From Maridesulfovibrio sp. (GTDB lineage: Bacteria; Desulfobacterota; Desulfovibrionia; Desulfovibrionales; Desulfovibrionaceae), in the NCBI RefSeq assembly GCF_963667685.1, contig NZ_OY763930.1, positions 2,215,501 to 2,279,500 on the forward strand: a stretch of DNA of 64,000 nucleotides, in the 5' to 3' direction. The notes under the pieces were generated by a model. That model had not been told where the DNA came from. It made no database searches and worked only from the letters and a program-made list of their open reading frames with translations. The position numbers were made by a program, and so were the translations under genes. The stretch's first letter is position 1; each line of letters begins with the position of its first letter. Of the stretch, positions 6,899 through 13,915 are shown one piece after another.

Positions 6899-6957
6899 AT
6901 GGATACCGTTGTCTTTTAATCTTATGGAAGTAATAAAGAGTGCAAACGTCACTTTGG

Positions 6958-6986
6958 ATTATACCATTCCTGAAGTATGGTAACAA
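6958..6986 (-). promoter_or_regulatory. Sigma-70 promoter for the histidine kinase
   Basis: On the minus strand, TTGTTA (6986-6981), a 17-base spacer and a perfect TATAAT (6963-6958). Transcription should start near 6950, which makes the ATG at 6898 the first usable start. Confidence 0.65.
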
Positions 6987-7035
6987 GGTGGTATTGTCTT
7001 TAGGTGGTAAAATAGGCTCGTTTTCGGAAGGCAAT

Positions 7036-7071
7036 AAAAAAAGGGTTACGATCATTTGATCGTAACCCTTT
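7036..7071 (-). terminator. Intrinsic terminator of the first tRNA-Arg
   Basis: The minus strand reads AGGGTTACGATCA, a two-base turn, its complement, and then seven T residues. It lies 13 bases past the tRNA 3' end. The terminator of the second tRNA copy is an imperfect duplicate. Confidence 0.9.
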
Positions 7072-7083
7072 GACTTATCGAAG

Positions 7084-7160
7084 TGGCGCGCCTGAGAGGA
7101 TTCGAACCTCTGACCTACGGATTCGTAGTCCGGCACTCTATCCAGCTGAGCTACAGGCGC
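7084..7160 (-). tRNA. tRNA-Arg (anticodon ACG), copy 1
   Basis: The 77-base gene folds as a full cloverleaf. The acceptor stem GCGCCTG pairs with CAGGCGC, the D arm begins GCTCAGCTGGATAGAG, the anticodon loop is CTACGAA with anticodon ACG, and the T arm is AGAGG/TTCGAAT/CCTCT. The discriminator is G and the CCA end is encoded. The ACG anticodon (A34 normally deaminated to inosine) reads CGU, CGC and CGA. An identical copy lies 324 bases upstream on the same strand. Confidence 0.97.
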
Positions 7161-7174
7161 GCGTCGAGAAGAAG

Positions 7175-7203
7175 TGTTTATGTGTATTTGCCGGAACCGT
7201 CAA
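7175..7203 (-). promoter_or_regulatory. Promoter of tRNA-Arg copy 1
   Basis: The minus strand shows TTGACG, a 17-base spacer and TAAACA, ending 15 bases before the mature 5' end. This allows for a short 5' leader cut by RNase P. Confidence 0.55.
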
Positions 7204-7259
7204 GCATAAATTTAAAAAAAATAAAAAAAAGTTGTTATGAGTCAATTTTATAAAAATGG

Positions 7260-7318
7260 AATTCAAAATCTTAGAGCATCCCCGTGGGTGAGTTTTTCTT
7301 GATAATGAATTTTGAATT
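7260..7318. repeat. Inverted repeat between the two tRNA genes
   Basis: AATTCAAAAT (7260-7269) is exactly complementary to ATTTTGAATT (7309-7318), enclosing 39 bases that contain a small CCCGTGGG turn. It lies between the two tRNA units. It could be a stem-loop in RNA or a remnant of a duplication junction; no function is assigned. Confidence 0.4.
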
Positions 7319-7360
7319 TTTGTGTTTTGTACCGGGATAGAAAAAATAGGTTCTGAAACG

Positions 7361-7395
7361 AAAAAAGGATCACGATCTTATGATCGTAACCCTTT
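7361..7395 (-). terminator. Intrinsic terminator of the second tRNA-Arg
   Basis: The minus strand reads GGGTTACGATCAT, a short turn, ATGATCG-like complement with two mismatches, and then six T residues. It is clearly related to the terminator at 7036-7071, so the tRNA and its terminator were duplicated together. Confidence 0.85.
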
Positions 7396-7407
7396 GTATT
7401 TACTTAG

Positions 7408-7484
7408 TGGCGCGCCTGAGAGGATTCGAACCTCTGACCTACGGATTCGTAGTCCGGCACTCTATCCAGCTGAGCTACAGGCGC
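7408..7484 (-). tRNA. tRNA-Arg (anticodon ACG), copy 2
   Basis: This is identical over 77 bases to the gene at 7084-7160, including the encoded CCA. It has its own promoter and terminator, so the pair is not one polycistronic transcript but two separate units. Confidence 0.97.
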
Positions 7485-7496
7485 GCGTTGAAGAGG

Positions 7497-7525
7497 GTTC
7501 TATGGAGAAACGCTCTTAAGGTCAA
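7497..7525 (-). promoter_or_regulatory. Promoter of tRNA-Arg copy 2
   Basis: The minus strand shows TTGACC, a 17-base spacer and TAGAAC, ending 13 bases before the mature tRNA. Geometry matches the copy 1 promoter although the flanking bases have diverged. Confidence 0.55.
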
Positions 7526-7614
7526 GGGTTATTTTAAAACAAATTGTTTTTTTTGTGAAATAAATTTGGTTCAAGTATGGTTGTGTCAACTTAAGTAACT
7601 GTTAATATTGATCA

Positions 7615-9786
7615 TTAATGTGTAATGATCTTTGGAAAGTTCTTTGTGGTCACAATGGACATATCCGGGAGAATCCACATTGCCGAGCAGTCAGGGAAAT
7701 GTTCCTCCATGAATTTATTCCCTTTTTCCGGACCCATGATAAAAACTGTAGTGGCTAGAGCGTCTGCTGTCTCGGCATCAGGAGCTACAGTGGTGGTAGC
7801 AATGCTTTCAGATGATGATTGAAGCAGGGCAGGGTCGAAAATATGGTGCTTCCTTGTTTTATCCTCTTTGGATATCGGGATGATGAACTGATAATAATCA
7901 CCTGAACCGCAAACAGCCTTATCTTTAACCATGATGTGACCTATTATTCCGTCGCCGCGGGGATTGCGGATTCCGATAGACCAGTCTCTGTCGCCGAAGA
8001 CCATAAAATCTCCACCGGCTTCAACCATGCCCGTGCGGATGCCGGAAGATTTAAGGTAATCTGCGGCGGCATCGATGATGGTTCCTTTGGCAAGTCCGCC
8101 GAGGTCTATAGCCATTCCTTTTTTAGGGAGAAATACTTTAGTCTGTTCAGGATCAATTTTAAGAAGACGGTAGTTAATCAATTCTTTATGCCCGGCAAAT
8201 CGGCTCTTATCCAGTGCGTAGTAAAACGGTGTAGTCGTGATGGCGCCGATGGTAATATCAAAGCTGCCACCTGATTTCGCACTGATATCAAGACCGCGTT
8301 TGATAGTCTGCAGCGTCTTGTTTGAGACGTGCACCCATTTTTTGCCAGCCTCATGGTTGACCTGCCCTATAGAACCGAGCTTGTTGCGATGGTCGAGGTC
8401 CTTTTGCAGTCGGTGCATTATGGATACTGCTTCTTTGGCGATTTTTTCTGTGCGGGAATCTGTCTCCGGGATAGTCAGGTTGACTACCGTACCCATGGCT
8501 ACATCACTGTAGCGGAAAAAATCCTTGTGCGTATTCTGCTGGAGGTTCTGGGGGATGAGCATGAGCAGGCCGATAAATGTGAGCGCTGATATGGTCAGAG
8601 CACTCTTTTTGAATCCTCTTCCACTAACCCCTTCATATATAAGATGCACGGCAGCCATTGCTCCGGCAATGGCGGTCAGCTTGAATGGAGTGCCTACATG
8701 ACCGCTGCTGCTGACCATGAAACCGCAAAAAAGAGGCCCGGTAATGAAGCCGAGGTTGGCGGCCATATTGGCGTATCCCAGGTTCTTACCCTTGGCAGAG
8801 CCCAGTTCAGAACAGACAGCCATGGAAGCCGGCATGGACACGGCTGCACCTATCCCGGAGAGTATTCCGCCGCATAGAAAACCGGAGGCTGTTGAGCATC
8901 CACCCAATATGTATAGAGCGAGTGCACTGGTGAGCATCCCGGCAGATGTGGTCAGACGCCGATCGAATCCGGCCAGAAGTTTCCCGAAAATAGGGAGCAG
9001 AAGCACAGTTGTCAGGCTGGGCATACAGAAGAATATCGCAGTGCTGCCCGGGCTTAGTTGCAGGGAGGAAGTCAGCAGAACCGGATAAAATGCAATCAAG
9101 CTTCCTATACCCATTCCCCGTCCGAAAAGGGCGGTCATTATACTTATGTAATGGCTTGTACCTGTTGAATTGTGGGCTTCGTCTTTTTTTTCCGTAGTGC
9201 GGGTGGGCATATGCCGGGTGCTGAACGTGAAGATGATGAAGGCCAGTCCCATGAAAGCGGACATTGTTCCCAGTACGGGCAGGTAGTCCTTATCTATATA
9301 TAATAGTCCACCCAGCAGCGGGCCAAGTAGAAACGATGAATTCATCACTGCTGAAAGTATGGCAAAGCGGGAGGACAACTTGTCGCTTTCCATACCGGCC
9401 CCTATTGCCGCCATGCTGACAGTCCGTATTGTCCCGGCGCAAAGTCCGAGGATAAATTGAATTGCGTAGAGAGTCTCGATGGTTGGAAACAGCACGTAGA
9501 GCAGTGGAAGTAGTATTGCTGCACCACAGGCATACAGTAGGGGTTTCGCGCTTCCGTGCCGGTCAGCAAAACTCCCGGAGAGCGGTGCGATTAGCAGTTT
9601 GGCGAGGAAATATCCGGCGAAACCGGTTCCAAGCCACATGCCGCCGGCTTTTTCGTCAAGGTTCATCAGCGGCAGGGTGAATGTAAAAACCCCGGTCCCC
9701 ATGGAAGCGGCAAATACCGCCACCATAAGCATGGGCATATTGAATTTGGTCAGGATTTGGCTAAGCTTCGGGTTATAAATAGGCAT
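7615..9786 (-). CDS. MFS transporter fused to a C-terminal FAD:protein FMN transferase (ApbE) domain
   Basis: This is a 723-residue fusion. Residues 1-390 form a 12-helix major-facilitator transporter, with motif A after helix 2 (GSFADRHGSAKP, 71-82) and a charged central loop at about 191-212. A thirteenth hydrophobic helix (about 395-412) should carry the chain outward. Residues 420-723 are ApbE-like: MGTVVNLTI (431-439), DLGGLAKG (561-568), AGGDFMVFG (590-598), HHIFDP (647-652) and PDAETADALATTVF (669-682), which includes the region of the metal-binding acidic residues. ApbE uses FAD to attach FMN covalently to Thr/Ser of target proteins such as RnfG and NqrC and acts outside the cytoplasm, usually as a lipoprotein. 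Here a transporter replaces the lipid anchor. The start overlaps the TetR gene by 37 bases, so they are co-transcribed. The transported substrate is unknown; FAD or a precursor is an inference. Confidence 0.88.
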   Translation of the reverse strand: MPIYNPKLSQILTKFNMPMLMVAVFAASMGTGVFTFTLPLMNLDEKAGGMWLGTGFAGYFLAKLLIAPLSGSFADRHGSAKPLLYACGAAILLPLLYVLFPTIETLYAIQFILGLCAGTIRTVSMAAIGAGMESDKLSSRFAILSAVMNSSFLLGPLLGGLLYIDKDYLPVLGTMSAFMGLAFIIFTFSTRHMPTRTTEKKDEAHNSTGTSHYISIMTALFGRGMGIGSLIAFYPVLLTSSLQLSPGSTAIFFCMPSLTTVLLLPIFGKLLAGFDRRLTTSAGMLTSALALYILGGCSTASGFLCGGILSGIGAAVSMPASMAVCSELGSAKGKNLGYANMAANLGFITGPLFCGFMVSSSGHVGTPFKLTAIAGAMAAVHLIYEGVSGRGFKKSALTISALTFIGLLMLIPQNLQQNTHKDFFRYSDVAMGTVVNLTIPETDSRTEKIAKEAVSIMHRLQKDLDHRNKLGSIGQVNHEAGKKWVHVSNKTLQTIKRGLDISAKSGGSFDITIGAITTTPFYYALDKSRFAGHKELINYRLLKIDPEQTKVFLPKKGMAIDLGGLAKGTIIDAAADYLKSSGIRTGMVEAGGDFMVFGDRDWSIGIRNPRGDGIIGHIMVKDKAVCGSGDYYQFIIPISKEDKTRKHHIFDPALLQSSSESIATTTVAPDAETADALATTVFIMGPEKGNKFMEEHFPDCSAMWILPDMSIVTTKNFPKIITH

Positions 9787-10322
9787 GCTTCTTTGAAGAG
9801 ATTGTCAATCTGGAAAGGTGTTAAAAATTGAGTGCGGACTGCTCCGATTATGTGCCCGTAAACAAGATAAGATGTTTGCGGCAAGGGCACATCAAGGACT
9901 GAGCCGTCCTCTATCCCCTGTTTGATGTATTCATCAATGCGGTCAATCAGTCTTTTAAATTTAGCTGCGATGTGGGTGCGGTCAAGGTGGGGATATTCGT
10001 CGCTGAAGGGTGAGCTGCGCAGTAGGGTCGGGAATGTGGTCCGGTGACTTTCAGTGAAATCAAAATATGCCTGTACGAAAATTCCAAGAGCCTCAAGTCC
10101 ATTCCCACCCTTGTTTGCCTTATCTGTAAGCACTCCCAGCATTTGGTCGATTAGTTCTCCGCCTGCCTCAAGAAAGAGATTGTCCTTGTTTCCGTAGTAG
10201 TGCGATACCAGTCCAGAAGCTACTCCCGCATGGTCGGCAACCATTTTTAGTGTTGTATCAGTGTAGCCATGTTCTCCGAATTGTTCTTGTGCGGCCAGCA
10301 GGATTCTTTCTTTCTTGGTCAT
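9750..10322 (-). CDS. TetR family transcriptional regulator
   Basis: This is a 190-residue repressor-type regulator. The ATG follows CGGAG at a spacing of 5 bases. The N-terminal helix-turn-helix is typical (ILLAAQEQFGEHGYTDTTLK, then VADHAGVASGLVSHYYGNKD, residues about 7-47). The C-terminal ligand-binding domain (residues 50-190) is of the kind that senses small hydrophobic molecules. The 3' end overlaps the MFS-ApbE start, so regulator and transporter form one unit, and autoregulation that also controls the transporter is the usual arrangement. A candidate operator lies at 10410-10421. The ligand is unknown. Confidence 0.9.
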   Translation of the reverse strand: MTKKERILLAAQEQFGEHGYTDTTLKMVADHAGVASGLVSHYYGNKDNLFLEAGGELIDQMLGVLTDKANKGGNGLEALGIFVQAYFDFTESHRTTFPTLLRSSPFSDEYPHLDRTHIAAKFKRLIDRIDEYIKQGIEDGSVLDVPLPQTSYLVYGHIIGAVRTQFLTPFQIDNLFKEACLFITRSLAKS

Positions 10323-10409
10323 AGGATCTCCGTTGTTGGTCTGTCACGTTTTTAATGGAGTCCCCAGATGTGTCAGAGCCGACATTTTCTTGAACTCCCA
10401 GCCAATGTA

Positions 10410-10421
10410 ACACAAGTGTGT
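10410..10421. promoter_or_regulatory. Candidate TetR operator
   Basis: ACACA-AG-TGTGT, a dyad with 5-bp arms, lies 88 bases upstream of the tetR start codon. Position and symmetry fit an operator, but nothing ties it specifically to this regulator. Confidence 0.3.
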
Positions 10422-10901
10422 CTTCGGTTCCGCCTTAATTATGAAATAATATTTTGTGGAAGTTGGGTTCTGACTTCCATATTTTCCATTAGTACTCAAT
10501 AGAAAAATTAACAAGGTTCAATATTAATAACTTCGCTATTGTTTTTGCCATTTTTTTTAAGTGTTATTTGCTTTGCCGGTAGGTCTGAATGCAATCTTTC
10601 AGGATAAGATTATGAATTACAATCCATTATGACAGTGACACGTTTGGTGTGTTTAGTGGCACTTATGAGTGTGTGCAAAAATTCACGAAGTTGTCAACAA
10701 AAATTTCAAAATTGATTGACCAGCCAATTAAGGGGTGTTAGAAAGATTACAACGAGAAGACAAAGTGGTCTTTTATTAACATAAAAGACACATATTTGAC
10801 AGTGTGAGTTTTGGGTTTTGGTTCTGGTTCAATATAAATCTCTCCGAAGGGAATGATTGAATTCTCTCTTCGGGTGCCGGGGGATAAATGCCAGTTGTAA
10901 G

Positions 10902-11210
10902 TCAAAACATCTCCGCGAGGAATGGGGTGGGACCCGTTTCTTCGGACGCAGGAAAAAGCTGTAACATGGGTCGCTCCGACTTTTGGTTCCGGGCTTGCCT
11001 GCCTCTTTTTAACTGCCTTATGTCTTTTTCCCTTTCAAACTTATCTGCCGTACCTTTTTCCGTGTCCTGCGGGGTAATAACCGGTCCGGCTTCCATAATG
11101 CCTTTCACTACATACGACAACACGAATAGTTCGCTTACCATTCCGGAGGCGGATAATTCCATGTGCTTATTGCATAATTGCCTTGATCCATTTTCAAAAA
11201 TATTCCCCAT
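10902..11210 (-). CDS. Possible small hypothetical protein
   Basis: A 102-residue frame; a shorter ATG start (MELSASGMVSEL) gives about 86 residues. The composition is natural for a soluble protein, with a hydrophobic patch (SELFVLSYVVKGIM) followed by a charged KFEREKDIRQLKRGRQARNQ stretch. There is no convincing ribosome site and no family was recognised. An open frame on the opposite strand over the same bases is less protein-like. The call is weak; the region could equally be a non-coding leader. Confidence 0.28.
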   Translation of the reverse strand: MGNIFENGSRQLCNKHMELSASGMVSELFVLSYVVKGIMEAGPVITPQDTEKGTADKFEREKDIRQLKRGRQARNQKSERPMLQLFPASEETGPTPFLAEMF

Positions 11211-11249
11211 TAAGGGGATTATTCATTTTAAGCCGGGTATTTAGCCGGT

Positions 11250-11273
11250 GCCCGACATGCTCGGGCGGTTTTC
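11250..11273 (+). terminator. Hairpin with short T run in the sdh leader region
   Basis: GCCCGA, a five-base loop, TCGGGC, then GGTTTTC. It resembles an intrinsic terminator on the plus strand but no confident gene ends just before it. It could be an attenuator for sdhCAB or the end of a small RNA. Confidence 0.4.
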
Positions 11274-11400
11274 TGGAAGTGGAGTTGCTGCATCTTATGC
11301 GGCAGCGGTTCAGTACTACTGTATTTATCTGACTAGGTGCTGATGGGGTTGTGTTGGTAATCCATTAATTCGGGAGAAATTCCGTCAAAGGAGGATTGTT

Positions 11401-12048
11401 ATGGCTGTAGACGTAGGTATGCACTTGGCTCGACCGGGCAAAAGGGATGCGGTTCTCGACTGGCTGCAGATGCTTACCGGGGCCGGACTTGTGGCATTTA
11501 TGTGGTGCCATATGATTCTGGTGTCATCGGTTGTCCTTTCACCGAAAATCATGAATGCCATTGCACATTTTTTCGAAGCCACGTATATGGCTCAGGTCGG
11601 TGGTCCTTTGATTTTCTTAGCTTTTTTGTTACATTTCGCGCTGGCGGCCAGAAAGATTCCTTTCCGCGCGGAAGGCCAGGCAACCATATTGCAGCATGCA
11701 CAGATGCTTAAGCATCGTGATACCTGGCTTTGGGTTGTTCAGGCCGTGACCGCAATGGTTATCCTTGTGATGGGTGCCATCCACATGTGGGTTGTGCTCA
11801 ATGATCTTCCCATTACTGCCGCGAAGTCGGCGGCTCGTGTAGGTGAAGGCGGATGGACGCTTTTCTATCTGGTTCTCCTGCCTTGCGTTGAGCTTCATGT
11901 CAGCGTTGGCTTCTACCGTATTGGCGTCAAATGGGGATTCATCAGGACCGAGAACCGGAAGCAGGCCAAAAAGCTTGAATCCATTCTCTTTGCGACCTTC
12001 ATGGTCATCGGCATCCTCACCCTGATCAGGTTCATCACTTTAAGTTAA
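11401..12048 (+). CDS. sdhC: Succinate dehydrogenase/fumarate reductase, di-heme cytochrome b subunit
   Basis: This is a 215-residue integral membrane protein with five helices, starting after a strong AAAGGAGG site. It matches the B-type di-heme anchor of Wolinella FrdC. Histidines in suitable helix positions include WCHMILVSS (about 41), LLHFALAARKI (about 80), MGAIHMWVVL (about 123) and ELHVSVGFYRIG (about 163), consistent with four axial heme ligands. The protein anchors SdhAB in the membrane and exchanges electrons with menaquinone. It is the first gene of sdhCAB, followed by fumarase and malic enzyme. The direction in vivo (succinate oxidation or fumarate reduction) cannot be told from sequence. 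Confidence 0.92.
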   Translation: MAVDVGMHLARPGKRDAVLDWLQMLTGAGLVAFMWCHMILVSSVVLSPKIMNAIAHFFEATYMAQVGGPLIFLAFLLHFALAARKIPFRAEGQATILQHAQMLKHRDTWLWVVQAVTAMVILVMGAIHMWVVLNDLPITAAKSAARVGEGGWTLFYLVLLPCVELHVSVGFYRIGVKWGFIRTENRKQAKKLESILFATFMVIGILTLIRFITLS

Positions 12049-12061
12049 ACGGGGTTCTTAA

Positions 12062-13915
12062 ATGCAAACATATTACTCTGATCTCCTTGTTATCGGCGCT
12101 GGTCTTGCTGGCGAGCGCGTGGCTGTGGAGGCGGCCCAGGAAGGTTTTGATGTAATCTGTCTCTCAATTGTCCCGGCACGCCGATCTCACTCATCGGCAG
12201 CACAGGGCGGCATGCAGGCTGCTCTGGGTAACTGTGCCAAAGGCGAGGGGGACAACGTAGACGTCCACTTTGGCGACACTGTCCGTGGTTCCGACTGGGG
12301 TTGTGACCAGGAAGTGGCCCGTCTTTTCGCTGACGCTGCTCCAATTGAAATGCGTCGACTTGCGCACTGGGGTGTGCCCTGGAACCGCGTTGTTCCCGGT
12401 AAATCTTTCTATTTCAAAGGCGGCGAGAAATTTGAAAAGGAAGAAAAAGAAGAGAAGCGCGGCCTGATTACCGCCCGCTCCTTCGGCGGTACCGCTAAAT
12501 GGCGTACCTGCTATACTTCCGACGGAACCGGCCATGCGGTTATGTGTACGATGGATAACCGTTGCGCTGAACTTGGAATTGATGTTTTTGACCGCAAGGA
12601 AGCTATTTCTCTAATTCATGACGGTGACAAATGCACAGGTGCGGTTGTCCGCTGCCTACGGACTGGCGAGCTGGAAGTGTTTCTCTCCAAGGCTACTGCA
12701 ATTTGCACAGGCGGTTTCGGGCGTATCTACAAGGCAACAACAAATGCGGTCATCTGTGATGGCGGCGGGCATATCATCGCCCATGATACAGGGGTTGTTC
12801 CCATTGGTAACCCGGAAGCAATCCAGTTCCACCCCACCGGAATTGTACCTACCGATATTCTGGTAACTGAAGGGTGCCGCGGTGACGGCGGGACACTTCT
12901 CGACGTCAACGAAGAGCGGTTCATGAACATTTACGAACCGGAAAAGGCCGAACTGGCCTCCCGTGACGTTGTTTCCCGCTGGATGACTCATCACATGCGT
13001 CAGGGTAAAGGTGTTAAGTCCGCTTATGGCGAGCACCTCTGGCTGGACATCCGTCATCTCGGTGATAAACACATCTCCACTAAACTGCGTGAAGTTGATG
13101 AAATCTGCCACCATTTCCTGAATGTTGATCCCCGCAAACAGCTTATCCCGGTCCGCCCGACCCAGCATTATACCATGGCTGGTGTACGTACCAATAAAGA
13201 TGGTGCGGTTTACGGTCTCAAAGGGCTGTTCTCTGCCGGTGAGGCTGCATGTTGGGACATGCACGGTTTTAACCGCCTCGGCGGTAACTCTCTGGCTGAA
13301 ACAGTTGTCGCAGGCGGTATCATCGGTTCCAAGATTGTTGAATTCCTTAAGGGGTATGAGGTCGAAATCAAGACGGCATTGGTTAATGACGCTGTCCGTA
13401 AGCAGGAAGAACGCATTGAAAAACTGCGCAGCGGCGCAAACGGCAAAGAAAATGTCTACAAGGTTCGTGAAGAAATGCAGGATGCCCTTATGGAAGGCTG
13501 CTTTGTATTCAGAAATGATGCCGGACTCAAAAAATGTATTGAAACCCTTCAGGGTACTCTTGATAAAGCCCGCAGGGTCGGTCTTGTTTCCGACGGACTT
13601 GGCGCCAACCACGAGCTGGCTGCGGCCCTTAAGATTGAAGGTCAGGTCAAGCTCGGCCTTTGTATTGCTAAAGCTGCTCTGGAACGTACTGAAAGTCGTG
13701 GTTCCCACAACCGCGAGGATTACACCGCACGCGATGATAAGAACTGGCTGAACAGAACACTGGCTTATTGGCGCGATGGCGCAGACATGCCTGAACTGCA
13801 ATACGAGGAAGCCACTCCCTGCTACGAAATTCCTCCGGGAGACCGTGGTTACGGCGGCGGTTCCATCATCGAAGCCGACAAGGCAGAGATTGAAGCCAAA
13901 ATGATCAAGAAATAA
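12062..13915 (+). CDS. sdhA: Succinate dehydrogenase/fumarate reductase flavoprotein subunit
   Basis: This is a 617-residue catalytic subunit interconverting succinate and fumarate. Residues 7-13 (LVIGAGL) form the FAD-binding loop; SHSSAAQGGMQAALG (about 43-57) carries the histidine that binds FAD covalently; QFHPTGIVPTDILVTEGCRG is the substrate and capping region; HGFNRLGGNSLAE lies near the flavin ring. The wording RGSDWGCDQEVARLFADAAP closely follows Wolinella FrdA, agreeing with the di-heme anchor upstream. It starts 13 bases after sdhC and ends 20 bases before sdhB, so the three are co-transcribed. Confidence 0.96.
   Translation: MQTYYSDLLVIGAGLAGERVAVEAAQEGFDVICLSIVPARRSHSSAAQGGMQAALGNCAKGEGDNVDVHFGDTVRGSDWGCDQEVARLFADAAPIEMRRLAHWGVPWNRVVPGKSFYFKGGEKFEKEEKEEKRGLITARSFGGTAKWRTCYTSDGTGHAVMCTMDNRCAELGIDVFDRKEAISLIHDGDKCTGAVVRCLRTGELEVFLSKATAICTGGFGRIYKATTNAVICDGGGHIIAHDTGVVPIGNPEAIQFHPTGIVPTDILVTEGCRGDGGTLLDVNEERFMNIYEPEKAELASRDVVSRWMTHHMRQGKGVKSAYGEHLWLDIRHLGDKHISTKLREVDEICHHFLNVDPRKQLIPVRPTQHYTMAGVRTNKDGAVYGLKGLFSAGEAACWDMHGFNRLGGNSLAETVVAGGIIGSKIVEFLKGYEVEIKTALVNDAVRKQEERIEKLRSGANGKENVYKVREEMQDALMEGCFVFRNDAGLKKCIETLQGTLDKARRVGLVSDGLGANHELAAALKIEGQVKLGLCIAKAALERTESRGSHNREDYTARDDKNWLNRTLAYWRDGADMPELQYEEATPCYEIPPGDRGYGGGSIIEADKAEIEAKMIKK

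Follow-up and report, generated by a model that had tools for sequence, protein, structure and literature searches.

An MFS–ApbE fusion of the Desulfovibrionales as a candidate route for FAD to a flavin transferase predicted to act outside the cytoplasm

How does FAD reach an ApbE flavin transferase that acts outside the cytoplasm? A 2025 review, in the part drawn on here, calls this route "still obscure", and the question is raised anew by a gene of Maridesulfovibrio sp. in which a transporter and an ApbE domain are joined. We analyzed the 64,000-nucleotide stretch of contig NZ_OY763930.1 that holds this gene (the window). An initial annotation had described 12 transporter helices, a thirteenth helix, and a complete ApbE domain, and had proposed that the transporter exports FAD, or a flavin precursor, to the enzyme it carries. 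The features at issue are as follows.

7615..9786, minus strand: MFS–ApbE fusion gene, 723 aa (open frame; Pfam MFS_1 and ApbE)
8623..9786, minus strand: MFS half, residues 1-388, with 12 helices, invariant Q110 and R223, and K/R63 and K/R121 (model; conservation among 46 distinct members)
8548..8601, minus strand: predicted thirteenth helix (approximately residues 396-413), flanked on the inside by a K/R-rich stretch at 385-395 (model helix 396-410, low confidence; at least one K/R in the flank in 33 of 33 rows)
7633..8520, minus strand: ApbE half (approximately residues 423-718), with its catalytic residues intact (Pfam; Foldseek to FmnB with FAD; 32 of 32 fusions)
9750..10322, minus strand: TetR-family regulator gene, overlapping the fusion by 37 bases (open frame; TetR_N, E = 6.4e-14; same layout in L045, L046, L047, and L127)

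One protein with an MFS half and an ApbE half

The domain layout first proposed was borne out by Pfam, by a structural model, and by conservation among relatives. The gene is a single open frame with an ATG start and no internal stops, and its product matches two Pfam domains only, namely MFS_1 (E = 7.2e-34; 117.7 bits against a cut-off of 33.4; two stretches, the best at residues 20-235) and ApbE (PF02424; E = 2.1e-62; 211.5 bits against a cut-off of 25.6; residues 431-703, covering 265 of 266 profile positions). An AlphaFold2 model made from eight fusion sequences (mean pLDDT 78, pTM 0.60) shows 12 long helices that end by residue 388, followed by a separate helix (396-410) and an ApbE fold. 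The linker at 409-433 falls below a pLDDT of 50, helix 13 is weakly modelled, and the placing of the two halves relative to each other is unsure at this pTM. With its profile match and 12-helix fold, the first half belongs to the major facilitator superfamily (PF07690). Foldseek matched it to LmrP, NorA, and VMAT2, and by sequence, the closest solved structures are NorA and the VMATs.

The second half resembles FmnB with FAD (7esa; TM-score 0.83 by target, Foldseek), and TM1553 is also similar. Both of the ApbE blocks named at the outset are present, DLGGLAKG at 561-568 and AGGDFMVFG at 590-598, and D561, G564, K567, D593, S628, H647, H648, D675, and T679 are invariant in 32 of 32 distinct fusions. 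Among these, S628, H647/H648, and D675 align with FmnB and supply the Ser/His/Asp active site; which of these residues count in ApbE was taken from the relevant part of PMC12052999.

Between a sensor kinase gene and the fusion lie two tRNA-Arg genes (anticodon acg; window 7084-7160 and 7408-7484, minus strand), and locus L045 likewise has two tRNA genes behind its fusion.

Spread and genomic company of the fusion

The MFS–ApbE fusion is a real and conserved protein that is found widely in part of the order. A search of the family with the complete protein found near full-length fusions in 11 of 99 genomes, including the own one, and a profile of the MFS half matched 68 places in 55 of 348 genomes of the order at 1e-60 or better. 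Fifty-four of these places lie in frames of at least 696 aa (53 genomes, one of them, G701, with two) and 14 in frames of about 400-460 aa. Fusions in this count are defined by a frame length of at least 696 aa, an ApbE match having been confirmed in 31 distinct long frames, and four or five candidates per genome were scored in the order and phylum searches, so that extra copies could be missed. In addition to its two fusions, G701 (loci L118, L122, and L123) has an MFS linked to nqr, and FMN_bind is matched there six times.

Among 395 genomes sampled from the phylum, the only subfamily-like match beyond the own genome was in G441, which belongs to another family (above 370 bits, past 1e-45). 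Four more matches, at 157-166 bits, proved to be MFS proteins that do not belong to the subfamily, and the stretches fetched around them contained no ApbE. A scan of a contig collection with two MFS peptide patterns returned nine relatives, of which seven were fusions, one of them in a Desulfobulbus propionicus entry (L072), and two were unfused proteins before nqr-apbE; six of the nine (L071, L073, L075, L076, L077, and L078) add nothing to the 348-genome count, the reach of the scan is limited by its two patterns, and other phyla may hold relatives. The single window protein as query gave no matches in the same collection. The fusion is thus present in two more lineages of the phylum, and since the order has 54 long frames of this type, spread over 53 of its 348 genomes, we conclude that it is no accident.

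The TetR gene noted in the initial annotation is a feature of some members only. Its 37-base overlap here has the same layout at the four further loci given above, but the fusions in L048-L052 and L124-L126 have no adjoining TetR gene. No conserved TetR operator was seen in an alignment of seven upstream stretches, and no FMN riboswitch near the fusion or nqr genes was found at the gathering score in seven loci or in window 6900-11600; the lack of a riboswitch counts against a flavin cargo.

Unfused members of the MFS subfamily were present in 14 genomes, and in all 14 the gene adjoins nqrABCDEF-apbE, directly before nqrA in 13 cases and, in G091, facing the apbE end from the opposite side. 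A Pfam check of the nqr locus identified NqrA, B, E, and F, ApbE, and MFS in the own genome and NqrC and NqrD in G093. In a quick tree, the 14 unfused proteins formed one clade, and the fusions together with this clade stood apart from the outside MFS rows, except for one row that is no MFS (L054_12454, with a branch length of 10); this row was dropped from the residue comparison below, which leaves five outside rows. The same type of transporter thus meets ApbE both fused and as a neighbor, which commonly points to a shared task. The proposal that the transporter serves ApbE thereby gains indirect support from the gene order of its unfused relatives. A conserved 152-aa protein with no Pfam family follows nqr-apbE at L037 16838-17296, and likewise in L040, L041, and L043.

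We then asked which protein would receive the flavin. Co-occurrence with Rnf, Nqr, and FMN_bind proteins, suggested at the outset as a check, was strongly positive. In the family, ApbE (48 of 99 genomes) and FMN_bind (49 of 99) go together, and in the order they are present in 187 and 185 of 348 genomes, respectively. Every fusion genome has FMN_bind (53 of 53), and 29 of these genomes have no ApbE other than the fusion, according to per-genome counts that are complete for genomes with a match. The own genome (G000) has three ApbE and three FMN_bind matches. Its Nqr comes with an apbE; of its two Rnf operons, that on C3 has its own apbE (locus L038, 7210-8256), while the complete operon on C2 (L039) has none; and the fusion lies elsewhere.

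The same pattern extends to other fusion genomes, as an Rnf operon without its own apbE was present in nine of 11 that were examined. In eight (G048, G093, G074, G004, G072, G046, G091, and G016), rnfCDGEAB stands without ApbE, with at least about 3.9 kb fetched behind rnfB; in G022, the rnf locus ends at the contig end before rnfB. In another of the 11, G024, and also in G441, the fusion lies directly behind rnfB, in the place of apbE. According to the part of PMC4841214 drawn on here, rnfCDGEAB in Desulfovibrio (D. alaskensis) ends with RnfF/ApbE. This protein is the flavin transferase of Rnf, the role proposed here for the fusion, but it is free-standing, and Tat-like in the loci examined here, and the fusion replaces it. 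RnfG keeps a GA[ST] site in the twelve rnf loci compared, and RnfD has such a site in some only. In L072, the gene directly after the fusion (12308-13540) encodes a product of 410 aa that is hydrophobic near its N-terminus, has FMN_bind (E = 1.8e-4) as its C-terminal domain, and carries a DAISSAT site.

The apbE-less Rnf operons, the genomes with the fusion as sole ApbE, and the presence of FMN_bind in all 53 fusion genomes make Rnf the most likely target of the ApbE half, and we hold it highly probable that this half acts on Rnf from outside. Two genomes, G007 and G031, count against a strict rule, as they have Rnf without apbE and no fusion; in these, the nqr ApbE alone could serve Rnf. Self-flavinylation was also considered and rejected, as the window protein lacks [ST][GS]A[ST] and none of 32 fusion rows, which include one copy of that protein, has D-x(1-3)-[ST][GS]A[ST]. 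In trypanosomatids, ApbE is joined to fumarate reductase, as stated in the part of PMC12052999 used here. The partner there is the target of flavinylation, whereas here it is a transporter, and the form of flavinylation site that we searched for is absent.

The transporter half and its possible cargo

Conservation in the MFS half was assessed in 46 distinct members (32 fusions and 14 unfused proteins); L002, a repeat of the window protein, was dropped from this set and retained in a 33-row comparison of loop charges and flanks. Three basic positions, K/R63 (helix 2), K/R121 (helix 4), and R223 (helix 7), are kept in 45, 46, and 46 of 46 members, respectively, and residue 269, at the end of helix 8, is basic in 37 of 46. 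Of the acidic residues within the modelled helices, D75 alone is conserved; it is the aspartate of motif A and lies close to where helix 2 ends. P156 (46 of 46) and G159 (45 of 46) belong to a GPxxGG block in helix 5, which we take to be motif C of the DHA1 family, a mark of exporters. At position 110, presumably the site of the motif-B arginine in helix 4, Q was found in 46 of 46 members, versus R in 5 of 5 outside MFS rows. With the DHA1 drug/proton antiporters (NorA, LmrP, and MdfA), the subfamily therefore has the MFS fold, the motif-A aspartate, and the helix-5 GPxxGG in common, but it differs from them in the Q110 that replaces the motif-B arginine and in helices that keep basic residues but hardly any acidic ones. 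In GlpT and similar MFS carriers, phosphate is bound by paired arginines. Judged by the conserved residues of the subfamily, the positively lined path would accommodate FAD or another anion more readily than a cationic drug. Counting against FAD, an MFS protein outside the subfamily with no ApbE link in its fetched stretch (L081) has the same three basic residues.

The best explanation, to which we give a probability of about 0.6 on the strength of the linkage to ApbE, Nqr, and Rnf, is that the MFS half supplies FAD to the ApbE half. The MFS half would export FAD, an anion, from the cytoplasm, probably as an antiporter with protons; the ApbE half would be set on the periplasmic side by helix 13 and would use the exported FAD to attach FMN to RnfG, and perhaps to RnfD too, of an Rnf whose operon lacks apbE. 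Nqr would be served in the same way by the unfused relative, working with the separate lipoprotein ApbE that the nqr operon encodes.

Flavin exporters of other kinds offer a comparison. Bfe and YeeO are MATE-family exporters of flavins, FAD included, in Gram-negative bacteria; they would share flavin export with the MFS half, but have another fold. The part of PMC9973259 drawn on here describes the known Gram-negative flavin exporter as not co-located with apbE. In Listeria, by the same part of that source, EetB-FmnA is an ECF-type FAD exporter working with FmnB (an ApbE), and its gene is often found beside apbE and also beside Rnf. Like the role proposed here, EetB-FmnA brings FAD to an extracytosolic ApbE. 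However, it is an ECF system, mainly of Firmicutes, for which that part mentions no ApbE fusion, whereas the present transporter is an MFS protein, fused to ApbE or beside nqr-apbE. EetB (PF07456) had no match in 99 of 99 family genomes. In the titles and abstract openings of open-licence PubMed Central articles, we found neither an MFS–ApbE fusion nor an MFS exporter of FAD for ApbE.

Gene order misled in the case of RfnT, and the FAD reading therefore calls for caution: RfnT was named a riboflavin transporter by gene order and is in fact an MFS copper importer, according to the part of PMC6362234 used here. Proteins like RfnT and CcoA are thus also MFS proteins once tied to flavin by gene order, but they are copper importers with MxxxM and HxxxM motifs. 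Copper import was rejected for the present subfamily, in which both motifs occur within the first 400 residues in one of 46 members, and HxxxM in four of 46.

The RfnT precedent favors a different reading, in which the ApbE half flavinylates periplasmic Rnf while the MFS half is a mere anchor, or moves an unrelated metabolite or ion of Rnf or Nqr, and FAD arrives by another route. Such a route must exist, as 187 genomes of the order have ApbE and 55 have this MFS, so that most ApbE genomes do without it, a count that also weighs against our model. Yet a single helix would suffice as an anchor, and here a 12-helix body is kept with invariant polar residues in 46 of 46 members; the unfused form, moreover, anchors nothing and still adjoins apbE in 14 of 14 cases. 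We consider this reading unlikely, although it deserves to be taken seriously. Less probable still is an exchanger that takes back AMP, with or without FAD efflux. AMP is a by-product of the ApbE reaction (PMC12052999, in the part used), and the conserved basic residues fit AMP as well as FAD, but an exchanger has no direct support, the AMP output per cell is small, and the exporter-type helix-5 block is kept.

A further possibility is a TetR-controlled drug or waste pump that was joined to ApbE without a common task. TetR-linked MFS genes are often drug pumps, which speaks against FAD, and both the nearest structures matched by sequence (NorA and the VMATs) and the overlapping TetR gene in this genus point the same way. 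However, the ApbE link recurs in two arrangements and in several genera and families, the motif-B arginine of the outside MFS proteins is replaced by an invariant Q110, the membrane part has no conserved acid besides D75, and TetR is not general. A pump of this kind is thus very improbable.

As the initial annotation had supposed, helix 13 is predicted to place the ApbE half outside the cytoplasm, a topology supported by the helix count of the model and by the loop charges, with a total of 15 K/R in the inside loops versus 2 in the outside loops (helix limits set by hand). In all 33 rows, of which 32 are distinct, one or more K/R precede the hydrophobic stretch at helix 13. The flavins of RnfG and NqrC are taken as extracytosolic, and since Rnf is the likely target, the ApbE half would lie outside as well. 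Its extracytosolic position is thus a prediction from helix count, charge rule, and genetics, the last being the 29 of 53 genomes that have no other ApbE. That the ApbE half is cytoplasmic, with a helix 13 that is no membrane helix and a cytoplasmic target as for some ApbEs, would fit the low model confidence of helix 13 and the linker and the cytosolic ApbEs described in the part of PMC12052999 used here, but it is scarcely credible given the K/R-bearing inside flank and hydrophobic stretch in every row and the extracytosolic RnfG and NqrC flavins of genomes in which the fusion is the sole ApbE.

Export signals of ApbE and the supply of FAD

The idea that an ApbE outside the cytoplasm calls for an exporter may hold for only some of the ApbEs of the order. 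Tat substrates can take their cofactor in the cytosol, while Sec substrates need outside supply (PMC9973259, in the part drawn on), and NosX and NirX, kin of ApbE, are Tat-exported (PMC7660919, likewise in part). We compared the N-termini of 132 distinct ApbE frames from the fetched loci, 101 of them non-fusion, and a pattern emerged that had not been looked for. Signals were called with sequence patterns, not with SignalP, and the counts, which come from a wider pattern with a hydrophobicity rule, rest on few independent origins. When ApbEs linked to the nqr-MFS pair and those of families f110/f111 were set apart, 74 of the other 76 had a twin arginine followed by a hydrophobic stretch (Tat-like). 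A narrower pattern had given 60 Tat plus 3 fitting both Tat and lipobox. Two of the 76 fit neither signal, and one of these is the Rnf-linked ApbE of the own genome (L003). Conversely, a lipobox-like site was present in 14 of 14 nqr-MFS-linked ApbEs, and a twin arginine in none. In families f110/f111, which have no such MFS, 10 of 11 ApbEs had a lipobox-like site, two of them also fitting the Tat pattern.

Most other ApbEs examined in the order are therefore Tat-like and may need no exporter, whereas the lipobox-like nqr ApbEs adjoin the MFS in every case. Because of this split between Tat-like and lipobox-like signals, the MFS appears to accompany those ApbEs that are expected to leave the cytoplasm unfolded. 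The lipoprotein ApbEs of f110/f111 count against the model, as they indicate that an ApbE exported unfolded is not always paired with this MFS. Inspecting by eye the first residues of frames in 10 loci, we recognized no transporter beside the ordinary rnf-apbE or the f110/f111 ApbE. One genome without a fusion (G684, genus g5; loci L135 and L136) has instead a second ApbE that is free-standing, Tat-like at its N-terminus, and located apart from rnf, as though the fusion and such an ApbE were interchangeable solutions.

Tentatively, and at a little under even odds, these transporters may be the first family of MFS proteins that export FAD for ApbE in particular, as a fusion in the case of Rnf and as a separate neighbor in that of Nqr, with the rule for these Gram-negative bacteria that an ApbE folded before Tat export carries its FAD along while an ApbE exported unfolded needs an adjoining exporter. 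We regard the MFS half as a good candidate for the route by which FAD reaches ApbE. In the 29 of 53 genomes that have no ApbE besides the fusion, the loss of one gene should abolish Rnf flavinylation, and with the transporter lying within the ApbE protein or adjoining nqr-apbE, there is one gene, and one protein, through which the supply of FAD can be probed.
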